Source: Thermincola ferriacetica
GTDB lineage: Bacteria > Bacillota > Thermincolia > Thermincolales > Thermincolaceae
Length of the DNA stretch: 40,479 bases
NCBI RefSeq assembly: GCF_001263415.1
Contig: NZ_LGTE01000025.1
Span: 1 to 40,479, forward strand
Reading direction: 5' to 3'
The notes below the pieces were generated by a model. That model had not been told where the DNA came from. It was given only the letters and a program-made list of their open reading frames with translations, and made no database searches. Of this stretch, positions 748 through 38,904 are shown in pieces. The position numbers and the translations under genes are program-made. Numbering within the stretch: position 1 is the first letter of the stretch; each line of letters starts with the position of its first letter.

Positions 748-852
748 ATGATGAACCCATGGAAATTATTGTTCGACAGACATCTGATTGATATCGATAA
801 AAGATCTATTTTGCATCGGCGAATGGCCGCCGAATGGCCGGCGAATGGTTAA
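748..852 (+). CDS. Possible small ORF, 34 aa, upstream of acs
   Basis: An ATG at 748 is preceded by AGGTGG with 5-nt spacing and opens 34 codons (MMNPWKLLFDRHLIDIDKRS and onward). Its last third is encoded by the three 11-bp GAATGG repeats of the acs control region, so the C-terminus looks accidental. It could be a gene scrap or a leader peptide. I know no homologue. Only the ribosome site argues for translation. Confidence 0.25.
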   Translation: MMNPWKLLFDRHLIDIDKRSILHRRMAAEWPANG

Positions 853-946
853 AAACTGTCTTAATCTATTGGCACAACCGTTAAAGAGCATATTTCGACC
901 ATTCGCCGGCAAAGTGCTGACTTTAGATTCGCAATTGTTTTACAAT
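816..946 (+). promoter_or_regulatory. acs control region: repeat sites plus sigma-A-like promoter
   Basis: Three tandem 11-bp units with core GCGAATGG or CCGAATGG occupy 816-848. Read on the minus strand they give CCATTCGCCGG-type words. In plus orientation there is ACCGTT at 877 and GACCATTCGCCGG at 897, in register 21 bp apart. A GTGCTGAC block starts 17 bp after the second. The proposed promoter is CTGACT (917-922), an 18-bp spacer and TACAAT (941-946). The same last-repeat/17-bp/GTGCTGAC layout precedes the second synthetase gene, which is the main reason to call this regulatory. The expected leader is about 135 nt. Confidence 0.6.
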
Positions 947-1088
947 TTAGACACCAAGAAAGATATTTGCCGAAATACAGTGAGGGGGGATAGAGGGAGA
1001 TTAGGCTGTTGTACAAGGTACAACCACTTTATTTCTTTATTTGGTTACATAAAATTCAGAATTATAAAAAGATTAAGGAGGTAAGTCA

Positions 1089-3014
1089 ATGGATAACACC
1101 GCTTTAGAAAACCGTGTTTTTAACCCGCCGGCTGAAATTGCCGAGAATGCTAATGCGAAAGCCGATATTTATGAATGGGCGAAAAAAGACCGGCTTGGAT
1201 TCTGGGATGCCCATGCCAAGGAATTGGTTACCTGGTTCCAGCCTTATGATAAGATTCTTGATGACAGTAATCCGCCTTTCTACAAGTGGTTTGTCAACGG
1301 CAAACTGAATGTTTCTTATAACTGTGTGGACCGCCATGCCAAATCAAATCGTCGCAATAAGGCTGCTATTTTATACGAAAGTGAGATTGGCAAAAAGGTA
1401 TGCCTTACTTATGGTATGTTGTATCGTGAAGTAAACAAATTTGCAAATGTATTGGCCGGCCTTGGTGTAAAGAAAGGTGACAGGGTTGCTTTGTACATGC
1501 CTATGATCCCGGAAGCTACCGTTGCTATGTTGGCTTGCGCAAGGATAGGCGCGCCGCATTCGCTGGTGTTTGGTGGTTTCAGCCCGGAATCCCTGCGCGA
1601 CCGGATTAATGACTGCGGGGCGAAAGTACTTATTACTTCCGACGGTAACTTCCGACGCGGTAAGCCTTTCCCGCTGAAAGACAACGCTGACAAGGCCATG
1701 GAAGATACACCTACTATCGAAAAATGTATCGTTGTCAAGAACGCCGAAAACGAAGTCGTTATGAAAGAAGGCCGTGACTTGTGGTATCATGAACTGATGG
1801 CTACCGCTGCCAACTACTATGAACCGGAGGTAATGGATGCTGAAGATATGCTTTTCATCCTTTATACTTCCGGTACAACGGGAAAACCCAAGGGTGTTGT
1901 GCATACCAGCGGCGGCTACCTGGTACAAACCCAGGCTACTCTTAAATACGTCTTTGATATCAAGGAAGACGATGTATACTGGTGTACGGCGGATATCGGT
2001 TGGATTACCGGCCACAGTTATGTAGTCTACGGTCCGCTGGCACTTGGTACAACCGTATTTATGTATGACGGTACTATTGATTATCCTGATAAGGACAGGA
2101 TGTGGGATATGGCCGAAAGATACGGCGTTACCAAGTTTTATACTGCACCCACCGCCATCCGTACCTGGATGAAGTGGGGTACCGAATATGTTAAGAAGCA
2201 TGACCTGTCTGCCATCAAGATTCTGGGTTCCGTTGGCGAGCCTATTAACCCGGAGGCCTGGATGTGGTACCGTGAGAACATTGGCCACGGCGAAGCGCCA
2301 ATTATGGATACCTGGTGGCAGACAGAAACGGGGGCGCACATGGTTACCCCGTTGCCGGGAGTTACTCCGCTGAAGCCGGGCACCGCTACCGTACCGTTCC
2401 CCGGTATCGAAGTTGATATAGTTGACGAAAACAAGAATTCTGTAAATGAGGGCTATCTGGTTGTCAAGTCCCCCTGGCCGTCCATGTTGAGAACTGTTTA
2501 TGGTGATGACAACAGGTATATTGACCAGTACTGGAAGAAGTTTGGTGACTTTTACTTTGCCGGCGACGGCGCCAAGCGGGATGAAATGGGCTATATTTGG
2601 GTAACGGGCCGCGTCGACGACGTCCTTAACGTATCGGGACACCGGCTCGGAACAGCGGAAGTTGAGAGCGCTCTTGTTGAATGCGAAGAAGTAGCGGAAG
2701 CTGCTGTAGTGGGCAAAAAGCACGAGGTTAAAGGCGAGTCTGTATGTGCCTTTGTTATCCTGAAAGACGGTTTCGAAGGGTCTCCGGAACTTATTGAGAA
2801 ACTGAAAAAGCATGTTGGTGTGAAGATCGGTCCTATTGCTAAGCCTGATGACATTATCTTTACTTCCAGCTTGCCGAAGACACGTTCCGGAAAAATTATG
2901 CGCCGCCTCCTGAGGGATATTGCTGAAGGACGGGCTATTGGCGATGTTACTACGCTGGCTGACCCGGGTGCGATGCAGGAAATTGCCGCCAAATATGCCG
3001 GAAAAGAAGACTAA
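1089..3014 (+). CDS. acs: Acetyl-CoA synthetase, AMP-forming (EC 6.2.1.1)
   Basis: This 641-aa cytoplasmic enzyme activates acetate to acetyl-CoA through acetyl-AMP. The ACS N-terminal cap is followed by the AMP-binding domain with the P-loop-like [11 protein letters not shown] (residues 259-269), the TWWQTETG adenine/phosphate motif, the hinge-region [13 protein letters not shown], and the C-terminal PKTRSGK, whose Lys602 is the conserved catalytic, acetylatable lysine. Length matches bacterial Acs (about 650 aa). The start has an AAGGAGG ribosome site 7 nt upstream. It is followed by its own terminator and by a second, shorter synthetase gene. In anaerobes such enzymes serve acetate assimilation or syntrophic acetate metabolism; which applies here is not visible. 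Confident in family, slightly less in strict acetate specificity. Confidence 0.95.
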
Positions 3015-3225: not shown

Positions 3226-3340
3226 TAAACACATCTACAATGAAGTTTACATAAAAATTTCTGTTTCATTTTTTGAGACAACCGTTTGCTGTGAATGCAG
3301 ACCATTTAAGCCAACCAATTTTCCAACCGGGATAAACTTA

Positions 3341-3463
3341 TTGACCGTTCGTCGCCAAATTTTGACCATTCGGGGATAAAAATTGACCGTTGGCCTGCTG
3401 AATATGACCGTTCACCGGAAAGGTGCTGACTTTTTTGGACACTTGTTTTAAAATTAAGACAAG
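3341..3463 (+). promoter_or_regulatory. acsA control region: four 21-bp-phased repeats, promoter, palindrome
   Basis: TTGACC or ATGACC plus GTT/ATT starts at 3341, 3362, 3383 and 3404, exactly 21 bp apart, i.e. two helical turns. Degenerate copies (ACCGTTT at 3281, ACCATTT at 3301) may extend the array upstream. The last copy is followed, after 17 bp, by GTGCTGAC. The proposed promoter is CTGACT (3426-3431), a 17-bp spacer and TAAAAT (3449-3454). An imperfect palindrome with outer arms CTTGT and ACAAG covers 3442-3463 over the -10. The leader of about 170 nt contains a small hairpin (GTAAAAAA/TTTTTTAC, 3543-3566). The picture is of several activator subunits binding one DNA face; the protein is unknown. 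Confidence 0.65.
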
Positions 3464-3633
3464 TAGGAAGGTTGCGAAAACGTAATATTCAAGATTTGAG
3501 GTGATGTCTATAGGGGAATAGATGGGGTAGAACCCTGCGCCTGTAAAAAAGACCATTATTTTTTACCCACTGATAATTTTCAGAAAAGTCTAATTTGTTC
3601 GTTAGTTTGTGAGATATGGGGGAGGTTATTTTA

Positions 3634-5355
3634 ATGGAGAATTTGGAAGTTTTGGCGCCATCGCCGGGAAAACACAACATGGAGAACTATGAAGAAACCT
3701 GTAAGAACTTTAAGTGGGAAGATATAGAGAAGGTATTCAGTTGGTCTACCACCGGTAAAGTTAATTTGGCGTACGAGGCTGTAGACAGAATGGTAGATGA
3801 AAAAGGCAAAGGTGATATGGTTGCCTTATATTATTGCGACAGTAAAACCGAAGAAAAATACACCTTTGCTGATATGAAGGCTTACTCCAATAAATTTGCC
3901 AATGTCTTACGGAAGTATGGTATCGGGAAAGGCGACAGAGTATTTATCTTCATGCCGCGCAGCCCGAAATTGTACTTCAGCTTCTTGGGTATCGTTAAGG
4001 TTGGAGCTATTGCCGGTCCGTTGTTCGAAGCATTCATGGAAGCTGCATTAAAAGACCGGCTGTCCGACAGTGAAGCTGTTGCCATAGTAACTACTCCCGA
4101 ATTAAAAGGCCGCATTTTGAAAGATGAGCTGCCCAACTTGAAGCACATTTTCGTTGTAGGCGCTAATGGCGACCTCGGCGAGCGGGAAATTGACTGGGAT
4201 GCTGAAATGGCGCAGGCATCCGATGAAGCAGAAATAGAATGGGTTGAGCGTGAAACCCCGTTATTCCTCTTGTATACTTCCGGTTCCACCGGTAAGCCCA
4301 AGGGTATTATCCACGTACATAATGACATGCTTGGATATTACACTACAGGTAAGTATGTGGGCGATCTCCAAGAAGGAGATATGTACTGGTGTACAGCAGA
4401 CCCGGGTTGGGTAACCGGTGTTGTTTACGGCATGCTTGCTCCGTGGCTTAACGGATGCTCTACTATCCTTAGGGGCGGACGTTTCAATGCTGATGAATGG
4501 TATCAAACCCTGGAAAAATATAAAGTAACTGTTTGGTACAGCGCTCCGACTGCCTTCCGGCTGTTAATGGCTGAAGGTGAAGAAAAGATTAAGCAATACG
4601 ACTTGTCCAGTCTGCGTCACATTATGTCTGTAGGCGAACCGCTGAACCCGGAAGTTATCCGCTGGTTTATGAAAACCTTGAATGTTCGTGTACACGATAC
4701 TTGGTTTATGACTGAAACGGGTATGCAAATGATTTGCAACTATCCCTGCATGGAAATTAAACTTGGTTCCATGGGTAAACCGGTTCCCGGTGTTGAGGCA
4801 GCTATCGTGGATGACAATGGCAATGTTCTGCCGCCGCTGCAGATGGGTAACCTGGCCATTAAGAAAGGCTGGCCTGCCCAGATGCGTGCTGTATGGAAGA
4901 ATCCTGAAAAATTTAACGAATATTTCAAGCATGACCCCTGGTATATTTCCGGTGACTCCGCATACATGGATGAAGACGGCTATTTCTTCTTCCAGGGACG
5001 TGTTGATGATGTTATCAACACTGCCGGTGAGCGGGTAGGTCCCTTCGAGGTAGAGTCCAAACTCATTGAGCACCCGGCTATTGCCGAAGCCGGTGTAATT
5101 GGTAAACCGGACCCCATTCGTGGCGAAATTATCAAGGCCTTTATCGCATTAAATGAAGGTTATGAATGGACGGAGGAATTGGCTAAGGAAGTAAGAGACT
5201 TTGTTAAGAAGGGATTAGCTGCTCATGCCGCACCGCGTGAATTCGAAGTTAAGGATAAACTGCCGAAAACACGTTCCGGCAAGATTATGCGCCGGGTGCT
5301 GAAGGCTTGGGAGTTAGGTCTACCTGTAGGCGACCTCTCCACTATGGAAGACTAA
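3634..5355 (+). CDS. acsA: Acetyl-CoA synthetase, AcsA type (AMP-forming acyl-CoA synthetase)
   Basis: This 573-aa protein closely resembles Bacillus subtilis AcsA (572 aa) along its whole length as I remember it, down to the C-terminal GDLSTMED. It carries YTSGSTGKPKG from residue 214, DTWFMTETG, GRVDDVINTAGERVG and PKTRSGK with catalytic Lys550. The start at 3634 is preferred over an in-frame ATG at 3616, because GGGGGAGG lies between them with correct spacing for 3634. It lacks the long N-terminal cap of the neighbouring 641-aa enzyme, so the two are distinct paralogues with overlapping chemistry, possibly differing in affinity or in acyl chain preference. Shared upstream repeats suggest co-regulation. 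Confidence 0.92.
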   Translation: MENLEVLAPSPGKHNMENYEETCKNFKWEDIEKVFSWSTTGKVNLAYEAVDRMVDEKGKGDMVALYYCDSKTEEKYTFADMKAYSNKFANVLRKYGIGKGDRVFIFMPRSPKLYFSFLGIVKVGAIAGPLFEAFMEAALKDRLSDSEAVAIVTTPELKGRILKDELPNLKHIFVVGANGDLGEREIDWDAEMAQASDEAEIEWVERETPLFLLYTSGSTGKPKGIIHVHNDMLGYYTTGKYVGDLQEGDMYWCTADPGWVTGVVYGMLAPWLNGCSTILRGGRFNADEWYQTLEKYKVTVWYSAPTAFRLLMAEGEEKIKQYDLSSLRHIMSVGEPLNPEVIRWFMKTLNVRVHDTWFMTETGMQMICNYPCMEIKLGSMGKPVPGVEAAIVDDNGNVLPPLQMGNLAIKKGWPAQMRAVWKNPEKFNEYFKHDPWYISGDSAYMDEDGYFFFQGRVDDVINTAGERVGPFEVESKLIEHPAIAEAGVIGKPDPIRGEIIKAFIALNEGYEWTEELAKEVRDFVKKGLAAHAAPREFEVKDKLPKTRSGKIMRRVLKAWELGLPVGDLSTMED

Positions 5356-7345: not shown

Positions 7346-7729
7346 TTACACCTCTTTGGAAAAGGGCTTGGAGCGCTGCCTTTTCTGGCTTTTCAGTCTG
7401 GCAATAATTAACCTCCGTGTAATGGCCAGGTTTTGAAATATGCGGATGCCAAAAACAAATATGGCTACATAGTACAGGTTTACTCCGATATAATCACCGA
7501 AAAACACTAAAGCCGCTGAAGCCAGGCCATTGATGAAAAAGCCGGAAATTAATATGACGCCGTCAAATTTATCTTCCAGTACCCCCCTGATACCACCCAG
7601 GGTGGAATCCAGGGAAGCCAGAATGCCGATGGAAAGATAGGTGGCATAAGCAGGTGGAACGGTGAAAGTAAAAAACTGTCCGATTATAAGTCCACCAATA
7701 AGTCCTAAAATGGATATCAATGCCCACAT
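7346..7729 (-). CDS. sbp: Small basic membrane protein Sbp (DUF1290)
   Basis: A 127-aa protein with about four hydrophobic segments, a short lumenal/cytoplasmic loop carrying LGGIRGVLEDKFD, and a very basic C-terminus (RRLIIARLKSQKRQRSKPF). These match the small basic protein Sbp encoded next to ftsA in bacilli. Its biochemical role is unknown. Its ATG overlaps the preceding stop (TAATG), indicating translational coupling within the DUF881 operon. Confidence 0.85.
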   Translation of the reverse strand: MWALISILGLIGGLIIGQFFTFTVPPAYATYLSIGILASLDSTLGGIRGVLEDKFDGVILISGFFINGLASAALVFFGDYIGVNLYYVAIFVFGIRIFQNLAITRRLIIARLKSQKRQRSKPFSKEV

Positions 7730-13687: not shown

Positions 13688-13739
13688 TAAGGAGCTTTGG
13701 AAAGGGGGGATGCGGTACCATTACAGGCGGACAATTGAA

Positions 13740-13897
13740 TAGAGGTAAAGCGCCTGAACTCAAGCCGGTGTTTTGGCCTGACGGTTTGAGTTGACGAGGA
13801 AGGGGTTTATCGAGTTATTCGGCGGGTACCCCTCGGTTGACACGACCGTTAAAGGCAGCCAAAACCGGGCAGTGATGCGCGGGACAAATGCTGCCGG
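13740..13897 (+). ncRNA. glmS ribozyme (self-cleaving, GlcN6P-responsive)
   Basis: In the 5' leader of glmS. The predicted cleavage is between A13749 and G13750 in TAAA|GCGCC. The conserved core is visible: GCGCCTGAACT, P1 pairing AACTCAAGCCG with CGGTTTGAGTT, then TTGACGAGGA, GGGGTTTATCGA, TTCGGCGG and the closing ACCCCTC. A further stem pairs GGCAGC (13854) with GCTGCC (13890). In known examples glucosamine-6-phosphate acts as cofactor for cleavage and leads to mRNA decay, giving product feedback on GlmS. It ends about 65 nt before the glmS start. Confidence 0.95.
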
Positions 13898-13961
13898 GTG
13901 GAAAAGGATTTGTTGTTATGAGGTAGAATTTACGGATTGAAAACATGGGAGTGAATGTGTA

Positions 13962-15791
13962 ATGTGTGGCATTGTTGGGTATATAGGGCCTAAGTCGGTG
14001 GTGCCCGTATTGATAGACGGCTTGAAGAAACTGGAATACCGTGGGTATGACTCGGCAGGTATTGCGGTGATAGAACAGGGTAAGGTGTTGGTGGCGAAAA
14101 GTGTTGGCAGGTTATCGAAACTGGAGGAGAAATTGGATGCTTATACGCCGGAAGCAAATATAGGCATTGGCCACACCCGTTGGGCGACGCACGGACGGCC
14201 TTCGGACGTTAATTCCCACCCCCATACGGATTGTACAGGGGTGATTGCTGTTGTGCATAACGGGATCATCGAAAATTACCTGGAGCTCAGGGAGTGGCTG
14301 GAAGCGCAGGGTCATAAATTTAAATCAGAAACTGATACGGAAGTATTGCCGCACCTGGTGGAGCATTTTTATGACGGCGACCTGGAAAAGGCCGTACAAC
14401 AGGTGATTACAAAGATTGAAGGCTCTTATGCCATGGCCGTGATCAGTAAAAACGAGCCGGATAAGATTGTGGCTGCCCGGAAGGACAGCCCCCTGGTTGT
14501 AGGTCTGGGCGACGGTGAGTATTTTTTGGCTTCCGATATCCCCGCTACCCTGGCCCATACGCGAGACAACTTTATTTTAAATGACGGCGAGATTGCCGTT
14601 ATTACTGCTGACGGTGTAAAAATAACCGATACGCAGGGCAATAAGATTACAAAAGAAGTATTCCATGTCCAGTGGGATGCTGTAGCTGCTGAAAAAGGCG
14701 GCTACCCGCATTTTATGCTGAAAGAAATTTATGAGCAGCCCAGGGCCATCAGGGAAACCTTCAGCAGCCGGATATCGGCTGACAATAAGCGGGTGGTATT
14801 AAACGAATTAAGTCTGACTGAAGAAGAGATTAAAGATTTACGGCACATCTTTATTGTTGCTTGCGGTACGGCTTATCATGCGGGTGTGGTAGGCAAATAT
14901 GTCATTGAGGACCTGGCCCGGATTCCTGTTACCGTGGATATTGCTTCCGAGTTCCGCTACCGGAACCCGATAATTCATCCGGGCGACCTGGTTATTGTCA
15001 TCAGCCAGTCCGGTGAAACTGCCGATACCCTGGCGGCTTTGCGGGAATCGAAAAAAGCGGGGGCCAGGATTTTGGCTGTTACCAACGTGGTCGGCAGCTC
15101 CGTGGCGCGGGAGGCGGACGATGTCCTGTACACCTGGGCCGGCCCGGAAATTGCCGTGGCTTCGACAAAGGCATATTCTACCCAGTTAATCGCCATGTTC
15201 CTGCTGGGCATCCATTTCGCTCAGGTACGGGGTACAATTGATGCTGCTTATGCGGAACGGCTCATCACCGGGATGCGGGAAATTCCCGACCAGGTGCAGA
15301 CTATTCTTGATGATCTGGAAGACCTGCAGAGTTTCCTGAAAAAATACGCGGAATGCCAGAACACCTTCTTCCTGGGCCGTGGCCTTGATTATGCGGTGGC
15401 CATGGAAGGGTGCCTGAAGTTGAAAGAAATCTCTTATATGCATGCCGAGGCTTATGCCGCGGGGGAACTGAAGCACGGTACCCTGGCCCTGATTGTGGAT
15501 GATGTGCCGGTAGTTGCGCTGGCCACCCAAACGGACCTGTACGATAAAATGGTGAGCAATATAAAAGAGGTCAAAGCGCGCGGCGCCCAGGTAATCGGGG
15601 TTACCTTTAAGGGTAATACGGAATTGCAGAAGGTTGTGGACCATGTGGTCTATATTCCGGAGACGGAAAATGTCCTGGCTCCCGTGCTGACGGTAATCCC
15701 GCTGCAACTGCTGGCCTACCATATTGCGGTGGCCAGAGGCTGCGACGTGGATAAGCCGAGGAATTTGGCGAAAAGCGTGACTGTGGAATGA
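13962..15791 (+). CDS. glmS: Glutamine-fructose-6-phosphate aminotransferase
   Basis: Makes glucosamine-6-phosphate from fructose-6-phosphate and glutamine, the first step to UDP-GlcNAc. This 609-aa protein has N-terminal nucleophile Cys2 (MCGIVGYIG) in the class II glutaminase domain (about 1-240) and two SIS sugar-isomerase domains (about 285-600) with ISQSGETADT and the C-terminal PRNLAKSVTVE. The last is the DNA-level target recognised by Tn7 TnsD in other bacteria. GGGAGTG precedes the ATG by 8 nt. Controlled by the ribozyme just upstream. Confidence 0.98.
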   Translation: MCGIVGYIGPKSVVPVLIDGLKKLEYRGYDSAGIAVIEQGKVLVAKSVGRLSKLEEKLDAYTPEANIGIGHTRWATHGRPSDVNSHPHTDCTGVIAVVHNGIIENYLELREWLEAQGHKFKSETDTEVLPHLVEHFYDGDLEKAVQQVITKIEGSYAMAVISKNEPDKIVAARKDSPLVVGLGDGEYFLASDIPATLAHTRDNFILNDGEIAVITADGVKITDTQGNKITKEVFHVQWDAVAAEKGGYPHFMLKEIYEQPRAIRETFSSRISADNKRVVLNELSLTEEEIKDLRHIFIVACGTAYHAGVVGKYVIEDLARIPVTVDIASEFRYRNPIIHPGDLVIVISQSGETADTLAALRESKKAGARILAVTNVVGSSVAREADDVLYTWAGPEIAVASTKAYSTQLIAMFLLGIHFAQVRGTIDAAYAERLITGMREIPDQVQTILDDLEDLQSFLKKYAECQNTFFLGRGLDYAVAMEGCLKLKEISYMHAEAYAAGELKHGTLALIVDDVPVVALATQTDLYDKMVSNIKEVKARGAQVIGVTFKGNTELQKVVDHVVYIPETENVLAPVLTVIPLQLLAYHIAVARGCDVDKPRNLAKSVTVE

Positions 15792-30303: not shown

Positions 30304-33300
30304 ATGAGCACTATAAACGGAGTAGAGAAGATGGAAATGAACAATAAACTACTTGGTCCCGAAGACATAGAAAAACACGCGGCGGAAATTGCCAAAAGCC
30401 ATCTGGTACAGGAAAAGGCCAGGTTTCCGAGATGGTTAATGACCCGGATTGGGAGCAAATATAAACATATCCTGGAAGTTTACAAAACCATCGACAGGGA
30501 GACAGGCGGAGGAATACCTTCGTCTTCTACGGCAGAGTGGCTCCTGGATAATTTTTATGTTATTGAAGAACAGGTAAAAGACATTAAACACGCTCTTGCC
30601 AGGAAACCCTATTTCCGGCTGCCAGCGCTTAAGAATGACCAAATGAAAGGCTATCCCAGGATATATGCCCTGGCTTTGGAGTTAGTCAATCATACGGACG
30701 GAATGATTGACGAAAAAACCCTGATGAATTTTGTCAGGGCTTACCAATCCCGCCAGCCGCTTTCCATGAGTGAGTTGTGGGCTATGGCAGTTATGCTCAG
30801 AATCGCACTGATAGAAAAAATCAGCCACATTTGTGACCAGTTAGGTGCGTATTATAGGCAGCGGTATGAGGCGCGCCGCACGGCCGACCTGATCGTCGGC
30901 GCTGTAGACAAGGGTGACAACGAGGTTCGGAGAGTAATCAATGAACAAATAGGCAATAAACCGGACGTCTACCCTTCTTTCATTGAACTTCTGGTCCAAA
31001 TGCTCAGAAAGCAGGGGAGGAAGACGGCGGCTGCAGTGGGATATCTTGATGAGAAACTTACAGAAAAGGGGTCTTCTTTAGAAAAGTTGATCAGTCTGGA
31101 ACACCGGATGCAGGCGGCCAGACAGGTTTCCATGGGTAATTCCATAACCAGTCTGCGCATGATAGCGGCTATAGACTGGAATGAGATTTTTGAATCCTTG
31201 AGTCAGGTGGAAGAGATTTTAAGACAGGACCCGGCCGGGATTTATAACCGGATGGATTTTGAGTCAAGGGACCATTACCGGCACATCATCGAAAAGATGG
31301 CCCAGTTTTATAACATTTCAGAGATTGAAGTTGCCCAAAAAGCATTGAGCTGTGCGCAGGAGGCGCCGGCGGAAGATAACGAGGGGCCGGTGCGGCATGT
31401 TGGTTACTACCTGGTCAGCGCCGGCAGAAAAAAGTTGGAAAGGCAAATTGGTATTAAACCCGGGGGGCTTAAGGCTGCCTTGAATTTTTTTAAACGATAT
31501 CCTTATGCCGTTTATTTTGGGTCTATCGCTCTGATTACCCTGGCCATTATGGCCTTAATCTTAACGTATGCTGCCGGTCAGGGGGGCGTGTCGCCTCTGG
31601 TGTTTTTTGTAACGGGGCTTGTTCTGTTAATACCTGTAAGTGATATTGCCATTAATATTGTAAATTTTACCGTCAGCCATATCTATGCGCCGACTGTGTT
31701 GCCAAAATTAGAGTTGAAAGACGGTATTCCCGAAGAAAACAGTACCATGGTGATTATTCCAACCCTCCTGCCTGATGCAAAGAGGGTGCGGGAACTTTTA
31801 GAGAAGCTGGAAGTTTATTACCAAGCCAATAAGGAAAATAATCTTTATTTCACCCTGGTGGGCGATTTTAAGGACGCCGATTCACCTGATACGCCAGATG
31901 ACCCTGTAATCGTTGAAACGGCGTTAGAGGGGATCAAAAAATTAAACCTGCGCTATGCCAAAGACAGGCCTGTTTTCTATTATTTCCACAGGGAGCGGCG
32001 GTTTAATGAAGCTCAGAACCAGTGGATGGGCTGGGAACGGAAGAGAGGAGCGATTATTGAGTTTAATGACCTGTTAAGGGGGGCTCAGGATACCAGTTTC
32101 ACGATATGCAGTTGTGACCCGGGCCAAATACCTGCTGTCAAGTATGTCATTACCCTTGATGCCGATACGAGTCTCCCCATGGGCGCTGCCAAAAGACTGA
32201 TCGGAACCATGGCCCATCCCCTGAATAAACCGGTAATTGACGCGGAAAAAGGAATTGTCATTAAAGGACACGGATTGTTGCAGCCGCGAATCGGGGTAAG
32301 TATTGACAGCGCCAATAAGACCCTTTTTTCCAGAATTTTTGCCGGGCAGGGGGGTATTGACCCTTATACTACGGCTGTTTCTGATGTGTATCAGGACCTC
32401 TTCGGGGAAGGAATTTTTACTGGAAAAGGGATTTATGAGCTGGATACTTTCCAAAAGGTACTCAAAGAGGCTATACCTGAAAACAGTGTATTAAGCCATG
32501 ACCTTTTGGAGGGCAGTTACGTAAGGGCGGGGTTGGTTACCGATATCGAATTAATTGACGGTTACCCGGCCCGCTACAATTCCTTTTCCATGCGACAGCA
32601 CCGCTGGGTCAGGGGAGACTGGCAGTTAATCCCCTGGTTAGCGGCCAGGGTAAAAGACAGGCGGGGAAAGTGGAGGAAAAATCCTCTTTCGCCATTGTCC
32701 AAATGGAAAATATTTGATAACCTGCGCAGAAGCCTGTTAAACCCCGCCTTGTTTGTGTTGATTTCTCTGGGCTTTGCCGCCCTGCCCGGCAATAGCCTGG
32801 TTTGGCTGGGATTAGCCATTGTTACTGTAACTTTTCCTACGGTAACCTATTTAATGGGCGGTATTTTGGCCAGGAATTACCACCTGGTAGAGGGAGGCAA
32901 GGGCCAGACTGTCATTACTGGGGTTAGGGCCAGTTTGTACCAGGCCATCCTCCAGTTTATCTTTATACCTTACCAGGCTTATTTGATGGCTGATGCTATA
33001 GTGAGAACCTTAGCCCGCGTCCTTGTTACAAGAAAAAATCTGCTGGAGTGGATTCCGGCAGCGGATCTGGAAGCTTTGCTGAGAAATGATTTGGTTACTT
33101 TTTACAGAAAAATGGGTATTTCTCCTTTAATGGGTTTGGCAGTCCTGGCGCTGGCGCTGGTGCGGCCCAGTACTTTTCCGGAAGTAATTGTGGCAGCTGC
33201 ACTCTTTGGTGTGTGGGCCGGCGCGCCTTACGTGGCCTTTCGGGTCAGCCAGGATTACGCAACCAGAGTTGATCCGTTAAACGAGCGCGAAAAGTCTGAA

Positions 33301-36300
33301 CTGCGCAGGCTGGCGAGAAAAACCTGGGCATATTTCGAAGACTTGGCGACGGCTGAGGAGAATTTCCTGCCACCGGATAATTTTCAGGTTGATCCGCCTA
33401 ATGGAAAGGCCCGCCGGACCTCGCCGACCAATATAGGGTTGCTCCTGGCTTCCATATTGGCGGCACGTGATTTTGGTTATCTGGGTACGGCCGGGATGTT
33501 AGAAAAGCTGAATGCCACAATATCCACGGTGGAAAAAATGGAGAAGTGGGAAGGGCATCTCTATAACTGGTATGACACGGAAAACCTTCGGGTTTTAAGA
33601 CCCAGGTATGTTTCTACCGTGGACAGCGGCAATTTTGTCGGTTATCTCATGGTGGTGGAAGAAGGATTGAGGGAATACCTCAATAAATCCCTGGCGGACC
33701 CTGTTCTTGCCCAGGGACTCCTCGACACCATCAGAATTTTTAATGAAGAACTGAATGACAGGGATTTGGCTATCAGTACAGAAGTGCTGGAGGCATACCT
33801 GGCTGCCGATAAACATGACCTACAGAACTGGCTGGCCATATTAGACGGCATGGTGGCCCAGTTGACGGCAGACGATAAACGGGAAAAGGTGCAGGCTTCC
33901 CCATGGGGCCGGAAGCTTCTGGCCATGGTGTATTCTTTTAAAAAAGAAGCAGCCCTTTCAGTTGACAGTATATATGAACAGGCTGTGGATTTAATGAAAA
34001 GGATCCGGGCGCTGGTGGAAAACACCAGATTTCTTCCATTGTATGACCCCAAGAGACAGCTTTTCTCTATCGGATACAACGTGGAAGAAGGCATGCAGAC
34101 CAAATCTTACTATGACCTGCTGGCTTCGGAAGCCAGGCTGGCAAGTTATATTGCCATTGCCCGGGGGGAAATTGACAAAAAACACTGGTTCAGGTTAGGC
34201 CGGAAGCTTACCCGGGTGGACGGTCACAAAGGCCTTGTTTCCTGGGCAGGCACCATGTTTGAGTATTTTATGCCCCTGCTGGTAATGAAGAATTATGAAA
34301 ACTCGCTGCTGGACGCAACTTATTCCTTTGTAGTGAAGGTGCAAAAAAAATACGGGCAGAAGCGTAAAATACCGTGGGGAATTTCTGAATCAGCTTATTA
34401 TGCGTTCGATATTGATTTAAATTATCAATATAAAGCCTTTGGTGTGCCTGAACTTGGATTTAAAAGGGGACTCGGCAACGAACTGGTAGTGGCTCCCTAT
34501 GCTACGGCGCTGGCCCTGACCACTGACCCCAAAGGAGCTGTCGAAAATATATTAACCCTAAAAAAAGAGGGAATGGACGGGGAATACGGTTTTTACGAGG
34601 CCATAGACTATACTCCCGCCAGGGCCGGACGGCACGGTAGAAGCTCTATTGTCAGGAGTTTTATGGCCCATCACCAGGGGATGAGCATATTAGCATTAAA
34701 CAATTATTTTCACGACAATATAATGCAGAAGCGTTTTCACGCCAATCCGGTCATCAGGTCGGCTGAGCTCCTTTTGCAGGAGAGAATGCCCTTAAAGGTA
34801 GTTATCACCAAGGAACACCGGGAAGCATATCAGCCCCTGAAAAGAAAAGTGCAGGATGAACCGGAAGTTGTCAGGAAATACGGGGTTCCGGCAGGAGAAC
34901 TGCCCAATGTTCACCTGCTTGCCAACGGAAGTTACTCAGTCATGGTGACTGACGGCGGCTCGGGTTACAGCAAAAATAACGATATGGCCGTGGCCAGATG
35001 GTGGGAAAGCTTGCGCGGCCACAGTTCGGGTTTCTTTATCTATATACAGAACATCAACTCCAATAATGTATGGTCGGCTACCTACGAGCCTTACAATATT
35101 GAACCTGAGGAATACAGGGTTGTTTTTTCGCCGGACAAGGCAGAATTTATCAGGAAAGACGGAAATATAGAGACGCATACGCAAATCGTGGTCTCACCGG
35201 AAGACAATGCCGAAATCAGGACAGTAACTTTAACCAATAACAGCCGGTACAGCAGGGTTGTGGAAGTAACCAGTTACCTGGAAGTGGTATTGACCCATCC
35301 GGATGCTGATTTGGCCCATCCGGCTTTCAGCAACCTTTTTGTAACAACAGAATTTCTGCCTCAATATGAATGCCTGTTGGCTGTTCGGAGACCCAGAAAC
35401 GCGCGGCAAAAACCTGTATTTGCCGTGCATACCGTTGTTGTTGAAGGAGAGGTTATCGGCGACCTGCAGTACGAGACTGACCGGGCCAGGTTTATTGGCC
35501 GGAACCGGAGCTTGAATAATCCTCTGGCCATGGATGTTGACCAGCCTTTATCCAATACCGTGGGGGCCGTGCTTGACCCGGTCATGAGTTTGCGCAGAAG
35601 GGTCAGGATTGAGCCGGGGCACTCGGTGAGAATTACTTATACCCTGGGAGTAGCCGATAGCCGGCAGGATGCCCTTAAACTGGCCGATAAATACCGGGAT
35701 CCCAAAGTGATAGAGCGGGCCTTTGAACTGGCCTGGAACCGCAGCCGGATTGAAGCAGACTACCTGGATATTAAAGCCAGGGATATGGAGGTTTACCTGA
35801 ATATGGTTCCCTCCATTCTGTTTCCCGGACCGGCAAGGCGCAAATATGGGGAACATATTGCCCGGAACAAAAAGGGTCAGCCCGGTTTATGGCCCTTTGG
35901 GATTTCAGGGGATATCCCCATTGTTCTGGTGCATGTTGATGATAAAGAGCAGACTGACCTGGTTTACCAGGTCCTGAAGGCCCATGAATTCTGGCGGATG
36001 AAAGGCCTGAAGGTAGATGTGGTTTTCCTGGCGGAAGATGAAAGGGGCTATGTCCAGCCCCTGCAGGAAAGGATCAGAGAAGCTATTTTTGCCAGCCATG
36101 CCCGGGATATGATGAACCGGCCGGGCGGGGTTTACCTGATTAACGGTAACGTAATGGCTGATGAGGAAAAAGACCTTGTTTATACTGCGGCCAGGTTGAT
36201 ACTGAAAGGTGATGCCGGGACTATTGAAGAGCAGTTGGCCTGGGAAGAAAACCGGGCGCCTGTTCCAAAGTTGAGTACCGTAAATATTGACCGGGGAAGA

Positions 36301-38904
36301 GCAGATAGGGAAATGAAGGTCCCTGCGGTTCCGCCAATTGATGCGGACCAACTCCTGTTTTATAACGGGATCGGCGGTTTCAGCCAGGACGGCAGGGAGT
36401 ACGTTATTCTTCTGCGGGAAGGGCAATATACTCCGGCTCCCTGGATTAACGTAATTGCCAACCCTGGCTTTGGTTTTAATATCACAGAGGTGGGAGCAGG
36501 GTATACCTGGGCGGAGAACAGCCGGGAAAACAAACTGACTCCCTGGTATAATGACCCGGTAACGGATCTGGCAGGGGAAGTGTTCTACCTCCGGGACGAA
36601 CAGACGGGAGATTACTGGAGCATTACTCCGATGCCGATCCGGGAACGGGAAGATTACCTTATCCGGCACGGCAAGGGGTATACTTCCTTTGAGCATACTA
36701 GCCACGGTATTAAGCAGGAATTGACAGCATTTGTGGCTTTGGAGGACCCGGTAAAGATTTGCCTGGTCCGGCTCCAAAACCTGTCCGCAGTTTCCAGGGA
36801 AGTATCGGTAACTTACTATATACGCCCGGTGCTGGGAGTCAATGAAAAGATTAATGTTCCCTATCTCGTTACACAGAGTGACGGTAAAAAAGGTATCTTG
36901 CTGATTACCAACCCGTATAACTCTGATTTTCCGGGACGCCTTGTTTTTATGGATACTTCTGAGGTTGAACGGACTTTTACCGGGGACGACAAGGAATTTA
37001 CAGGGGTTAACGGTACTCTGGAACGGCCGGCCGCTCTGGAACGGGAAAGGCTTTCCGGAACTGTGGGAGCCGGTTTACTGCCCTGCGGGGCCATGCAGGT
37101 GAAGGTATCCCTGGGGCCGGAGGAATCCAGAGAAGTTGTTTTCCTCCTGGGCCAGGGCCGAGATTTGGCGGAAGTAACGGCCATTGCCGATAAATACAGC
37201 AGTGTAGATGCAGCCCGGGCGGAATTGGCCAGGGTCAGGGCCTTTTGGCTTGAAAAACTGGAGGTTATCCAGGTTTCAACTCCCGATAAGTCCATGGATA
37301 TACTTTTAAACAGTTGGTTACAGTACCAGGTTGTATCCTGCCGTTTATGGTCCAGAGCCGCTTTTTACCAGTCAGGCGGGGCTTACGGGTTCAGGGACCA
37401 GTTGCAGGATGTGATGGCATTGGTCTATACCTGGCCGGAGCTGACCAGACAACAGATACTGCTCCACGCGGCCCATCAATTTGTGGAAGGCGATGTGCAG
37501 CACTGGTGGCACCCAGGGGTTAACAAGGGAATCCGGACCAGGTATTCCGATGATTTTCTGTGGCTGCCTTATGTAACGGCCGATTATATAGAATGTACCG
37601 GCGACCGGTCAATCCTCGATGAAACAGTGGGTTTTCTGGAAGACGACCCTCTGCCGGCAGATGAGGATGAAAAGTACAACATTCCGCGGGTTTCGGGAGA
37701 AAAGGATACAGTTTATAATCACTGCATCAGGGCTATTGAAAATGCCCTGAAATTCGGTGAACGCGGGCTCCCGCTGATGGGTTCGGGCGACTGGAACGAC
37801 GGCATGAACACCGTCGGCAACAAAGGCAAAGGGGAAAGTGTCTGGCTGGGCTGGTTCATTTATACCGTATTGCAAAGGTTTATACCCGTTTGTCTGGCCC
37901 AAAGTGACGAAAAGAGGGCGCAAAAATATGCGGCTGTAGCTGATAATCTGGCCGAAGCTATCGAGAAAAATGGCTGGGACGGCAGTTGGTACCGGAGGGC
38001 CTATTTTGATGACGGTACCCCGTTGGGTTCGGCCGCCAATACGGAATGTAAAATTGACTCTATTGCCCAGTCCTGGTCCGTCATTTCAGGAATAGGCAAA
38101 CCCCACCGGGCCGAGGAAGCCATGCAGGCTGTCGAAAAGTATCTGGTTGACCGGGAAGCCGGTATTATCAAACTCCTTACACCGCCCTTTAACGAGGGAT
38201 ATCTGGAGCCCGGGTATATCAAAGGGTATGTGCCGGGGGTCAGGGAAAACGGGGGCCAGTATACCCATGCGGCTGTATGGACAATTTTGGCCTTTGCCAA
38301 ACTGGGTCAGGGAGATAAGGCAGGGGAATTGTTTCATCTGATTAACCCCATCAACCATACCCGTACGACCATTGAAGCCATGCGGTACAAGGCCGAGCCC
38401 TATGTGGTGGCTGCCGATGTTTATGCCGCCCATCCCAATGCCGGACGGGGCGGGTGGTCCTGGTACACGGGCGCTGCCGGCTGGATGTATCGGGTAGGGA
38501 TCGAGCATATCCTGGGTATTAAAAAAGTCGGTGCTAACCTATATTTTGACCCGTGTATACCCAAAAAATGGCCGGAATTCCAGGTACAGTACCGGCTGTC
38601 CAAAACTTTATACCGGATTCATGTCTGCAACCCCGAGGGGATAAACAAGGGAGTCAAGACGGTAATGGTTGACGGTCAGCAGGTTCCGGAAGGATACATT
38701 CCTCTGGTTGACGACGGACAAGAGCATATAGTGGAAGTCATTATGGGGAAAACGGAAGAGAACCGGAATCCGCGGAGAAAGTTGGTGGAAACTGATGTGG
38801 CCGGGTGGCAGGCAGCTTTACGAAAAACCCCCGCACCGGCTGCCGCGGCGGCGCAGCGTAATGATGGGTCGAAATGGTCAACAAAATACGTTGAAAACCC
38901 CTGA
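30304..38904 (+). CDS. Cyclic beta-1,2-glucan synthase-like protein (GT84 + glycoamylase-like + GH94)
   Basis: 2866 aa, the length of Brucella/Agrobacterium Cgs/NdvB. Order: cytoplasmic N-terminus (1-390), two membrane helices (about 400-460), GT84 glycosyltransferase with Asp619-Ala-Asp621, His732-Asp733 in SHDLLEGS and RQHRW (764-768), further helices (about 805-990), a glycoamylase-like domain (about 1050-1460, GTMFEYFMPLLV, IPWGISESAYYA), two beta-sandwich regions (about 1540-1790, 2010-2290), and a C-terminal GH94 phosphorylase-like domain with GSGDWNDG, general acid probably Asp2499. It should polymerise UDP-glucose to beta-1,2-glucan and cyclise it. GGTGAT lies 8 nt before ATG 30304; ATG 30331 with GGAG at 8 nt is equally good. 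The stop lies in the terminator stem. Single gene. Confidence 0.9.
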   Translation: MSTINGVEKMEMNNKLLGPEDIEKHAAEIAKSHLVQEKARFPRWLMTRIGSKYKHILEVYKTIDRETGGGIPSSSTAEWLLDNFYVIEEQVKDIKHALARKPYFRLPALKNDQMKGYPRIYALALELVNHTDGMIDEKTLMNFVRAYQSRQPLSMSELWAMAVMLRIALIEKISHICDQLGAYYRQRYEARRTADLIVGAVDKGDNEVRRVINEQIGNKPDVYPSFIELLVQMLRKQGRKTAAAVGYLDEKLTEKGSSLEKLISLEHRMQAARQVSMGNSITSLRMIAAIDWNEIFESLSQVEEILRQDPAGIYNRMDFESRDHYRHIIEKMAQFYNISEIEVAQKALSCAQEAPAEDNEGPVRHVGYYLVSAGRKKLERQIGIKPGGLKAALNFFKRYPYAVYFGSIALITLAIMALILTYAAGQGGVSPLVFFVTGLVLLIPVSDIAINIVNFTVSHIYAPTVLPKLELKDGIPEENSTMVIIPTLLPDAKRVRELLEKLEVYYQANKENNLYFTLVGDFKDADSPDTPDDPVIVETALEGIKKLNLRYAKDRPVFYYFHRERRFNEAQNQWMGWERKRGAIIEFNDLLRGAQDTSFTICSCDPGQIPAVKYVITLDADTSLPMGAAKRLIGTMAHPLNKPVIDAEKGIVIKGHGLLQPRIGVSIDSANKTLFSRIFAGQGGIDPYTTAVSDVYQDLFGEGIFTGKGIYELDTFQKVLKEAIPENSVLSHDLLEGSYVRAGLVTDIELIDGYPARYNSFSMRQHRWVRGDWQLIPWLAARVKDRRGKWRKNPLSPLSKWKIFDNLRRSLLNPALFVLISLGFAALPGNSLVWLGLAIVTVTFPTVTYLMGGILARNYHLVEGGKGQTVITGVRASLYQAILQFIFIPYQAYLMADAIVRTLARVLVTRKNLLEWIPAADLEALLRNDLVTFYRKMGISPLMGLAVLALALVRPSTFPEVIVAAALFGVWAGAPYVAFRVSQDYATRVDPLNEREKSELRRLARKTWAYFEDLATAEENFLPPDNFQVDPPNGKARRTSPTNIGLLLASILAARDFGYLGTAGMLEKLNATISTVEKMEKWEGHLYNWYDTENLRVLRPRYVSTVDSGNFVGYLMVVEEGLREYLNKSLADPVLAQGLLDTIRIFNEELNDRDLAISTEVLEAYLAADKHDLQNWLAILDGMVAQLTADDKREKVQASPWGRKLLAMVYSFKKEAALSVDSIYEQAVDLMKRIRALVENTRFLPLYDPKRQLFSIGYNVEEGMQTKSYYDLLASEARLASYIAIARGEIDKKHWFRLGRKLTRVDGHKGLVSWAGTMFEYFMPLLVMKNYENSLLDATYSFVVKVQKKYGQKRKIPWGISESAYYAFDIDLNYQYKAFGVPELGFKRGLGNELVVAPYATALALTTDPKGAVENILTLKKEGMDGEYGFYEAIDYTPARAGRHGRSSIVRSFMAHHQGMSILALNNYFHDNIMQKRFHANPVIRSAELLLQERMPLKVVITKEHREAYQPLKRKVQDEPEVVRKYGVPAGELPNVHLLANGSYSVMVTDGGSGYSKNNDMAVARWWESLRGHSSGFFIYIQNINSNNVWSATYEPYNIEPEEYRVVFSPDKAEFIRKDGNIETHTQIVVSPEDNAEIRTVTLTNNSRYSRVVEVTSYLEVVLTHPDADLAHPAFSNLFVTTEFLPQYECLLAVRRPRNARQKPVFAVHTVVVEGEVIGDLQYETDRARFIGRNRSLNNPLAMDVDQPLSNTVGAVLDPVMSLRRRVRIEPGHSVRITYTLGVADSRQDALKLADKYRDPKVIERAFELAWNRSRIEADYLDIKARDMEVYLNMVPSILFPGPARRKYGEHIARNKKGQPGLWPFGISGDIPIVLVHVDDKEQTDLVYQVLKAHEFWRMKGLKVDVVFLAEDERGYVQPLQERIREAIFASHARDMMNRPGGVYLINGNVMADEEKDLVYTAARLILKGDAGTIEEQLAWEENRAPVPKLSTVNIDRGRADREMKVPAVPPIDADQLLFYNGIGGFSQDGREYVILLREGQYTPAPWINVIANPGFGFNITEVGAGYTWAENSRENKLTPWYNDPVTDLAGEVFYLRDEQTGDYWSITPMPIREREDYLIRHGKGYTSFEHTSHGIKQELTAFVALEDPVKICLVRLQNLSAVSREVSVTYYIRPVLGVNEKINVPYLVTQSDGKKGILLITNPYNSDFPGRLVFMDTSEVERTFTGDDKEFTGVNGTLERPAALERERLSGTVGAGLLPCGAMQVKVSLGPEESREVVFLLGQGRDLAEVTAIADKYSSVDAARAELARVRAFWLEKLEVIQVSTPDKSMDILLNSWLQYQVVSCRLWSRAAFYQSGGAYGFRDQLQDVMALVYTWPELTRQQILLHAAHQFVEGDVQHWWHPGVNKGIRTRYSDDFLWLPYVTADYIECTGDRSILDETVGFLEDDPLPADEDEKYNIPRVSGEKDTVYNHCIRAIENALKFGERGLPLMGSGDWNDGMNTVGNKGKGESVWLGWFIYTVLQRFIPVCLAQSDEKRAQKYAAVADNLAEAIEKNGWDGSWYRRAYFDDGTPLGSAANTECKIDSIAQSWSVISGIGKPHRAEEAMQAVEKYLVDREAGIIKLLTPPFNEGYLEPGYIKGYVPGVRENGGQYTHAAVWTILAFAKLGQGDKAGELFHLINPINHTRTTIEAMRYKAEPYVVAADVYAAHPNAGRGGWSWYTGAAGWMYRVGIEHILGIKKVGANLYFDPCIPKKWPEFQVQYRLSKTLYRIHVCNPEGINKGVKTVMVDGQQVPEGYIPLVDDGQEHIVEVIMGKTEENRNPRRKLVETDVAGWQAALRKTPAPAAAAAQRNDGSKWSTKYVENP

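Follow-up and report, generated by a model that had tools for sequence, protein, structure and literature searches.

Two acetate–CoA ligase genes of Thermincola ferriacetica share a promoter layout with LytTR-type boxes that points to a BtsR-like response regulator

The window analyzed here is the whole of contig C25 (40,479 nucleotides) of the Thermincola ferriacetica genome (G000; 3.18 Mb in 78 contigs), and it contains two adjacent, consecutive genes for acetate–CoA ligases on the forward strand, acs (1089–3014; TIGR02188, NF001208) and acsA (3616–5355; NF003313), the latter of which may truly start with the ATG at 3634 that is preceded by GGGGGAGG. The two proteins share only 36% identity and are therefore old paralogs, and as they also belong to different ligase families, the common promoter described below is not the trace of a recent duplication. 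A small conserved protein is encoded upstream on the reverse strand (244–594; MAEFKEPWEMLSDKKIWAML...). It has no Pfam match, and its homologs adjoin acs in the sister family and in G056, a genome of another family. A repeat occupies the first 172 positions; contig C12 of the same genome ends with a 91% identical copy, which is the likely cause of the assembly break. Elsewhere in the window, a glmS ribozyme (13738–13906) is found upstream of a glucosamine-6-phosphate synthase-like gene at 13962, and positions 30304–38904 encode a protein of 2866 residues with glycosyl hydrolase 94 and putative glucoamylase domains. A structured leader RNA was considered for acs and acsA and rejected, as an Rfam search gave no structured RNA near either gene. 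Our comparison set comprised ten genomes, the own one and nine relatives, the nearest of which form a sister family in the same order.

Upstream of acs, a distal box ACCGTTAAA (877–885), which is conserved in relatives, is followed at 21 bp by a proximal box ACCATTCGC (898–906), both on the forward strand. The proximal box ends 10 bp before the −35 element CTGACT (917–922), and the −10 element TACAAT (941–946) follows after an 18-bp spacer, 34 bp behind the proximal box. The acsA promoter has four 9-mer boxes in 21-bp steps (at 3344, 3365, 3386, and 3407; 3344–3415), with the last box again ending 10 bp before CTGACT (3426–3431), a spacer of 17 bp, and the −10 element TAAAAT (3449–3454) 33 bp behind the last box. 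Box numbers thus differ, with two at acs and four at acsA, where there is also a far upstream pair at 3281 and 3301 (3281–3309), 20 bp apart. These data confirm most of what the first-pass annotation had read from the locus, namely ACCGTT at 877, GACCATTCGCCGG at 897 (the A of its ACC is position 898, 21 bp from 877) 17 bp before GTGCTGAC (914), an identical −35 element at both genes, and −10 elements within TTGTTTTACAAT at acs and TTGTTTTAAAAT at acsA. The claimed difference in site spacing, an 11-bp tandem versus 21 bp, had to be given up, because the four acsA boxes are also 21 bp apart and the additional pair is spaced by 20 bp; an 11-bp spacing occurs only in an inverse array at acs. When positions 810–960 were aligned with 3330–3480, the local score was 69, and the best of 2000 dinucleotide-preserving shuffles reached 45, so that the similarity of the two promoters is not a matter of chance. 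The 3.18-Mb genome has no more than 11 matches to the pattern ACCRTT-N15-ACCRTT (8 with the reversed-pattern control), 4 of them within the acs and acsA promoters. In a genome-wide ranking by a box-pair profile, acs came first (E 1.3e-6) and acsA second (E 8.9e-6), which is not independent evidence, since these sites contributed to the training of the profile.

In relatives of the sister family, boxes precede the acs orthologs and acsA in pairs spaced by 20–21 bp, and one class of acs promoters has the series ACCGCT-20-ACCGTT-21-ACCGTT. ACCRYT pairs less than 39 bp apart in 22 acs-type promoters were spaced by 20 bp (10 pairs) or 21 bp (17 pairs) and by no other distance, a period that corresponds to 11–12 bp between the 9-mers in 21 of the 22 acs-type promoters with boxes. 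Two acs-type promoters, that of a third acs copy in the own genome and one of G006, had no such pair. On both strands of about 1 Mb of sequence, which is not a random sample, 13 pairs were spaced by 20 bp, 36 by 21 bp, and at most two by any other distance below 40 bp. The motif derived from 72 boxes is ACC[G/A][T/C]TN[G/A], and the purine at position 8 is present in all 72 although it was not a selection criterion, with the qualification that the boxes are related by descent and hence do not represent 72 independent events. The distance to the promoter core is equally constant: all 23 promoters of acs, acsA, and the acetate-uptake transporter gene satP have a −10-like hexamer that lies 33 or 34 bp behind the end of the last box. 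The distance is 32 bp at the glycine cleavage (gcv) genes, and several of the additional sites that were found by their boxes only also have a −10 at 33 or 34 bp. The −35 elements of box promoters are often poor, and satP has no recognizable one. A fixed distance of this kind would be required by an activator that binds beside RNA polymerase, from which we infer activation rather than repression. Outside the order, almost all of 27 acs upstream regions lack boxes, with the exceptions of G051, whose array looks real, and of G025 and G013, whose pairs are weak and have one mismatch. In named distant bacteria, boxes were absent from the acs genes examined.

The dimensions of these repeats are those of LytTR operators. 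LytTR response regulators recognize two repeats of 9–11 bp with 11–13 bp between them (PMC4847170), typically about 10 bp before the −35 element (PMC6193735), and the repeats found here are 9-mers that have 11–12 bp between them and end 10 bp upstream of the −35 element at both acs and acsA. The btsT target oligonucleotide of Escherichia coli BtsR contains GCCGCTCAA, ACCGCTTAC, and ACCACTCAG at distances of 20 and 21 bp (PMC4847170), and the two boxes of Bacillus subtilis LytT, each of 13 nt with a gap of 8 nt, also give a period of 21 bp (PMC5626966). About a quarter of the boxes in our set have A at position 4. The general LytTR pattern has G at this position, and this deviation counts against the assignment.

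The own genome contains four complete LytTR genes (on contigs C3, C6, C8, and C31). The one on C8 is paired with a histidine kinase gene (locus L023, 5651–7763), and the two encoded proteins resemble BtsR and BtsS, respectively. Comprising a receiver (PF00072) and a LytTR DNA-binding domain (PF04397), the C8 regulator is the closest to BtsR among the four and the only one with an ortholog in all nine relatives (81–87% identity); in the eight relatives that were checked, 98–103 of the 105 residues of its DNA-binding domain are identical. Its scores are below the cut-offs of the BtsR equivalog model (NF008677; 196.8 versus 246 bits) and of the LytR model (NF010684; 200.7 versus 375). The kinase (L023:5651–6979; orthologs in L172–L180 and L304–L312) has only GAF-like, His_kinase (PF06580), and HATPase domains. 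The 5TMR-LYT multi-transmembrane receptor domain is absent according to Pfam, and there are two transmembrane-like segments as opposed to five or more in BtsS. The GAF-like domain carries cysteines in the arrangement GC..., C-x4/6-C-x-CPL, and these four cysteines are invariant in all 12 kinase orthologs that were compared, and BtsS lacks at least one of them. They could possibly form a metal, Fe–S, or redox site, and the candidate signals that the kinase may perceive are acetate, pyruvate, and the redox or metal state. No box pair was found upstream of the own C8 operon, which counts against its regulator as the one that binds the boxes.

When 19 more distantly related Firmicutes genomes were searched, orthologs of the C8 pair were found beside acs, or within about 5 kb of it, in six other families. 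The gene order is kinase–regulator–acs in G056, acs (truncated)–kinase–regulator in G021, and acs–kinase–regulator in G046, and acs is divergent from the pair in G051 and G033. In G013, the pair is flanked on one side by an aldehyde:ferredoxin oxidoreductase (AOR) gene, and acs lies together with lrgAB at a distance of about 5 kb, and in G011 a sodium:solute symporter gene (PF00474) is located upstream of the pair. In the intergenic region that acs and the pair share in G051, three forward boxes (21 and 21 bp apart) precede acs, with 34 bp to a −10-like hexamer, and a box pair (20 bp) faces the kinase–regulator operon. Regulator and boxes are thus tied together outside the order as well. On the other side, most acs genes outside the order have no clear boxes even though several of these genomes carry the regulator beside acs, and this counts against our explanation; the acs flanks of the named distant bacteria do not contain a pair of the C8 type. 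In a Desulfonauticus sp., a different LytTR-type regulator with about 32% identity to the C8 protein is encoded directly upstream of acs (L101:1384–4342).

With a probability of roughly 0.78, we regard the repeats as operators of a LytTR response regulator and the BtsR-like C8 protein as the likeliest regulator of acs and acsA in one regulon. This reading is built on the boxes, their spacing and conservation, their distance to the −10 element, and the linkage of the pair to acs, all of them sequence features from which we infer binding, the signal, and the direction of control. Kinases of this family phosphorylate their regulators, and the C8 kinase would accordingly act on the C8 regulator, whose molecules would then bind to boxes two helical turns apart (20–21 bp), on the same face of the DNA. 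Since the boxes are placed just upstream of a weak sigma-A-type −35 element, the bound regulator could recruit RNA polymerase at acs and acsA, and the response of acsA, with its four boxes, may be steeper than that of acs. In relatives, the regulator would act in the same way at satP, which would unite acetate activation and acetate uptake in one regulon. As the same switch lies before both ligase genes and before the acetate-use genes of relatives, one two-component system probably governs acetate use as a unit.

The first-pass annotation had proposed that both paralogs are wired to one regulator. An alternative is that no regulator is involved and that the common promoter arose by chance in AT-rich leaders or was copied in a duplication. 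The neighborhood of acs and acsA in the own genome would agree with such an origin, but the alignment beat every shuffle, the proteins are too different in sequence and family, the box number is two in one case and four in the other, and the layout recurs in another family and before unrelated genes; we consider this origin hardly credible. Conservation of the layout in the sister family and before the unrelated uptake gene supports the proposed common regulator of the two dissimilar ligases, for which a BtsR-like response regulator of the LytTR type is now a candidate.

More weight has to be given to the idea that the boxes are indeed LytTR operators and that acs and acsA are controlled by the regulator on C3 (near cytochrome genes), C6 (agr-like), or C31, given that there are four complete LytTR genes, that LytTR sites are alike between paralogs, and that a box pair is located about 4 kb from the C3 gene. 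Nevertheless, none of these three has an ortholog in all box-carrying relatives, where the other LytTR proteins are mostly 30–50% and at best 60% identical to them, and none was found linked to acs, which makes control by one of them unlikely. AraC/XylS-type activators likewise bind direct repeats with a spacing of about 21 bp near the −35 element, and spacing and position alone would fit a protein of this type. That it binds the boxes is nonetheless very improbable, as no AraC-type helix-turn-helix was found in the box-carrying genomes G004 (91% complete) and G007 (75% complete), and as the 9-mer fits LytTR/BtsR sites. In L020:6368–7479 (contig C3, reverse strand), a c-di-GMP-I riboswitch (7373–7479) is present just upstream of the C3 regulator gene, which adjoins cytochrome-like genes.

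Two further observations do not fit the explanation by the LytTR regulator and are counted against it. One is the inverse array at acs, which had been noticed as three inverse 11-bp copies at 816–848 and indeed consists of three reverse-strand boxes, 841–849 (ACCATTCGC), 830–838 (GCCATTCGG), and 819–827 (GCCATTCGC), in steps of 11 bp with the outer two 22 bp apart. This array is not conserved in the sister family. As reverse pairs recur at the third acs copy of the own genome (L059, a 22-bp pair) and upstream of acs in G046 (L306), it may be an accessory site. Its assignment as an operator of the divergent small gene was rejected: relatives have no forward boxes in an activating geometry before that gene, and in this genome about 170 bp separate the array from the −10-like site of the gene itself. 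The other observation concerns the third copy, acs3 (L059:416–2344 on contig C12, reverse strand; 84% identical to acs), which has only the reverse pair and has lost the forward boxes that its counterparts in relatives possess, and acs3 was rejected as a third regulated copy for this reason. Single matches inside genes (L022, L026, L027, and L028) were taken as chance occurrences.

Beyond acs and acsA, satP (NF038013/PF01184) is the third target predicted firmly from sequence; it is present in five of the ten genomes, with boxes in all five, and the own genome does not have it. Probable targets are an L-lactate-type MFS transporter (NF049980), with sites in several relatives and weakly in the own genome, the AOR operon on contig C11 of the own genome, the glycine cleavage genes behind glycine riboswitches in G002, and corrinoid methyltransferase operons. 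The methyltransferase operon on contig C16 of the own genome is no more than probable because its box triple has no −10 at 33 or 34 bp, whereas a nearer pair at C16:47808 has one. In the glycine cleavage operon of G002 (L217:4685–5289 on contig C2, reverse strand), four glycine riboswitch aptamers follow a LytTR-type promoter with three boxes.

Among the known systems, BtsS/BtsR of E. coli, which controls btsT in response to pyruvate, resembles the C8 pair in sequence (37% identity for the regulator, and 37% over 390 residues for the kinase), and its boxes, [AG]CC[AG]CT.[AG] (ACCGCT/ACCACT-type), are close to the motif found here and have the 20/21-bp series of one acs promoter class. It differs in its multi-transmembrane pyruvate receptor, in place of which the C8 kinase possesses two membrane segments, together with a GAF domain that carries four cysteines, and in its target btsT, in place of which we find acetate genes. 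LytS/LytT–pftAB of B. subtilis and LytSR–lrgAB belong to the same protein families and have two boxes with a 21-bp period, a likeness that concerns the spacing, and lrgAB adjoins acs near the orthologous pair in G013; however, the known target of LytS/LytT is a pyruvate transporter, and the sensor described here has no LYT membrane domain. CrbR of Vibrio and Pseudomonas is a LuxR-type regulator and its partner CrbS has an SLC5 symporter domain, whereas the C8 kinase has no symporter domain and its regulator is of the LytTR type. What CrbS/CrbR has in common with the C8 pair is the two-component control of the acetyl-CoA synthetase gene acs (PMC5436829, PMC5715377). HdrR/BrsR-type LytTR systems share 9-bp repeats with a 12-bp spacer, typically about 10 bp before −35 (PMC6193735), but their regulators are held by membrane inhibitor proteins, in place of which the C8 system has a receiver domain and a kinase.

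LytTR promoters as such are known, and so is the two-component control of acs, by the different family of CrbS/CrbR. The regulator type is known, but the acetate regulon itself does not appear to have been described before: in our literature search, which most subscription papers lay outside, no publication connected the control of acetyl-CoA synthetase in this group with a LytTR system. For anaerobes that oxidize acetate, reduce metals, or live in syntrophy, the activation of acetate is a key step. The analysis yields a motif for the operator, names a candidate for its regulator, and lists the predicted targets; it also draws attention to a sensor with four conserved cysteines, and it carries the LytS/LytTR theme, known for pyruvate sensing in E. 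coli and Bacillus, over to acetate. More tentatively, and with rather more doubt than belief on our side, a two-component system that is widespread in Firmicutes and separate from both BtsSR and LytSR might be the master regulator of acetate and C1/monocarboxylate use and sense via its four-cysteine GAF domain instead of a multi-transmembrane pyruvate receptor; in this case, acetate activation would be tied to the redox state and not to acetate itself. On contig C18 of the own genome, a gene (L262:3675–5876) encodes an iron-only-hydrogenase-like domain and an Fe–S motif fused to a sigma-54 activator domain with a Fis-type helix-turn-helix, and a candidate box pair with a −10 at 34 bp is located upstream of it.
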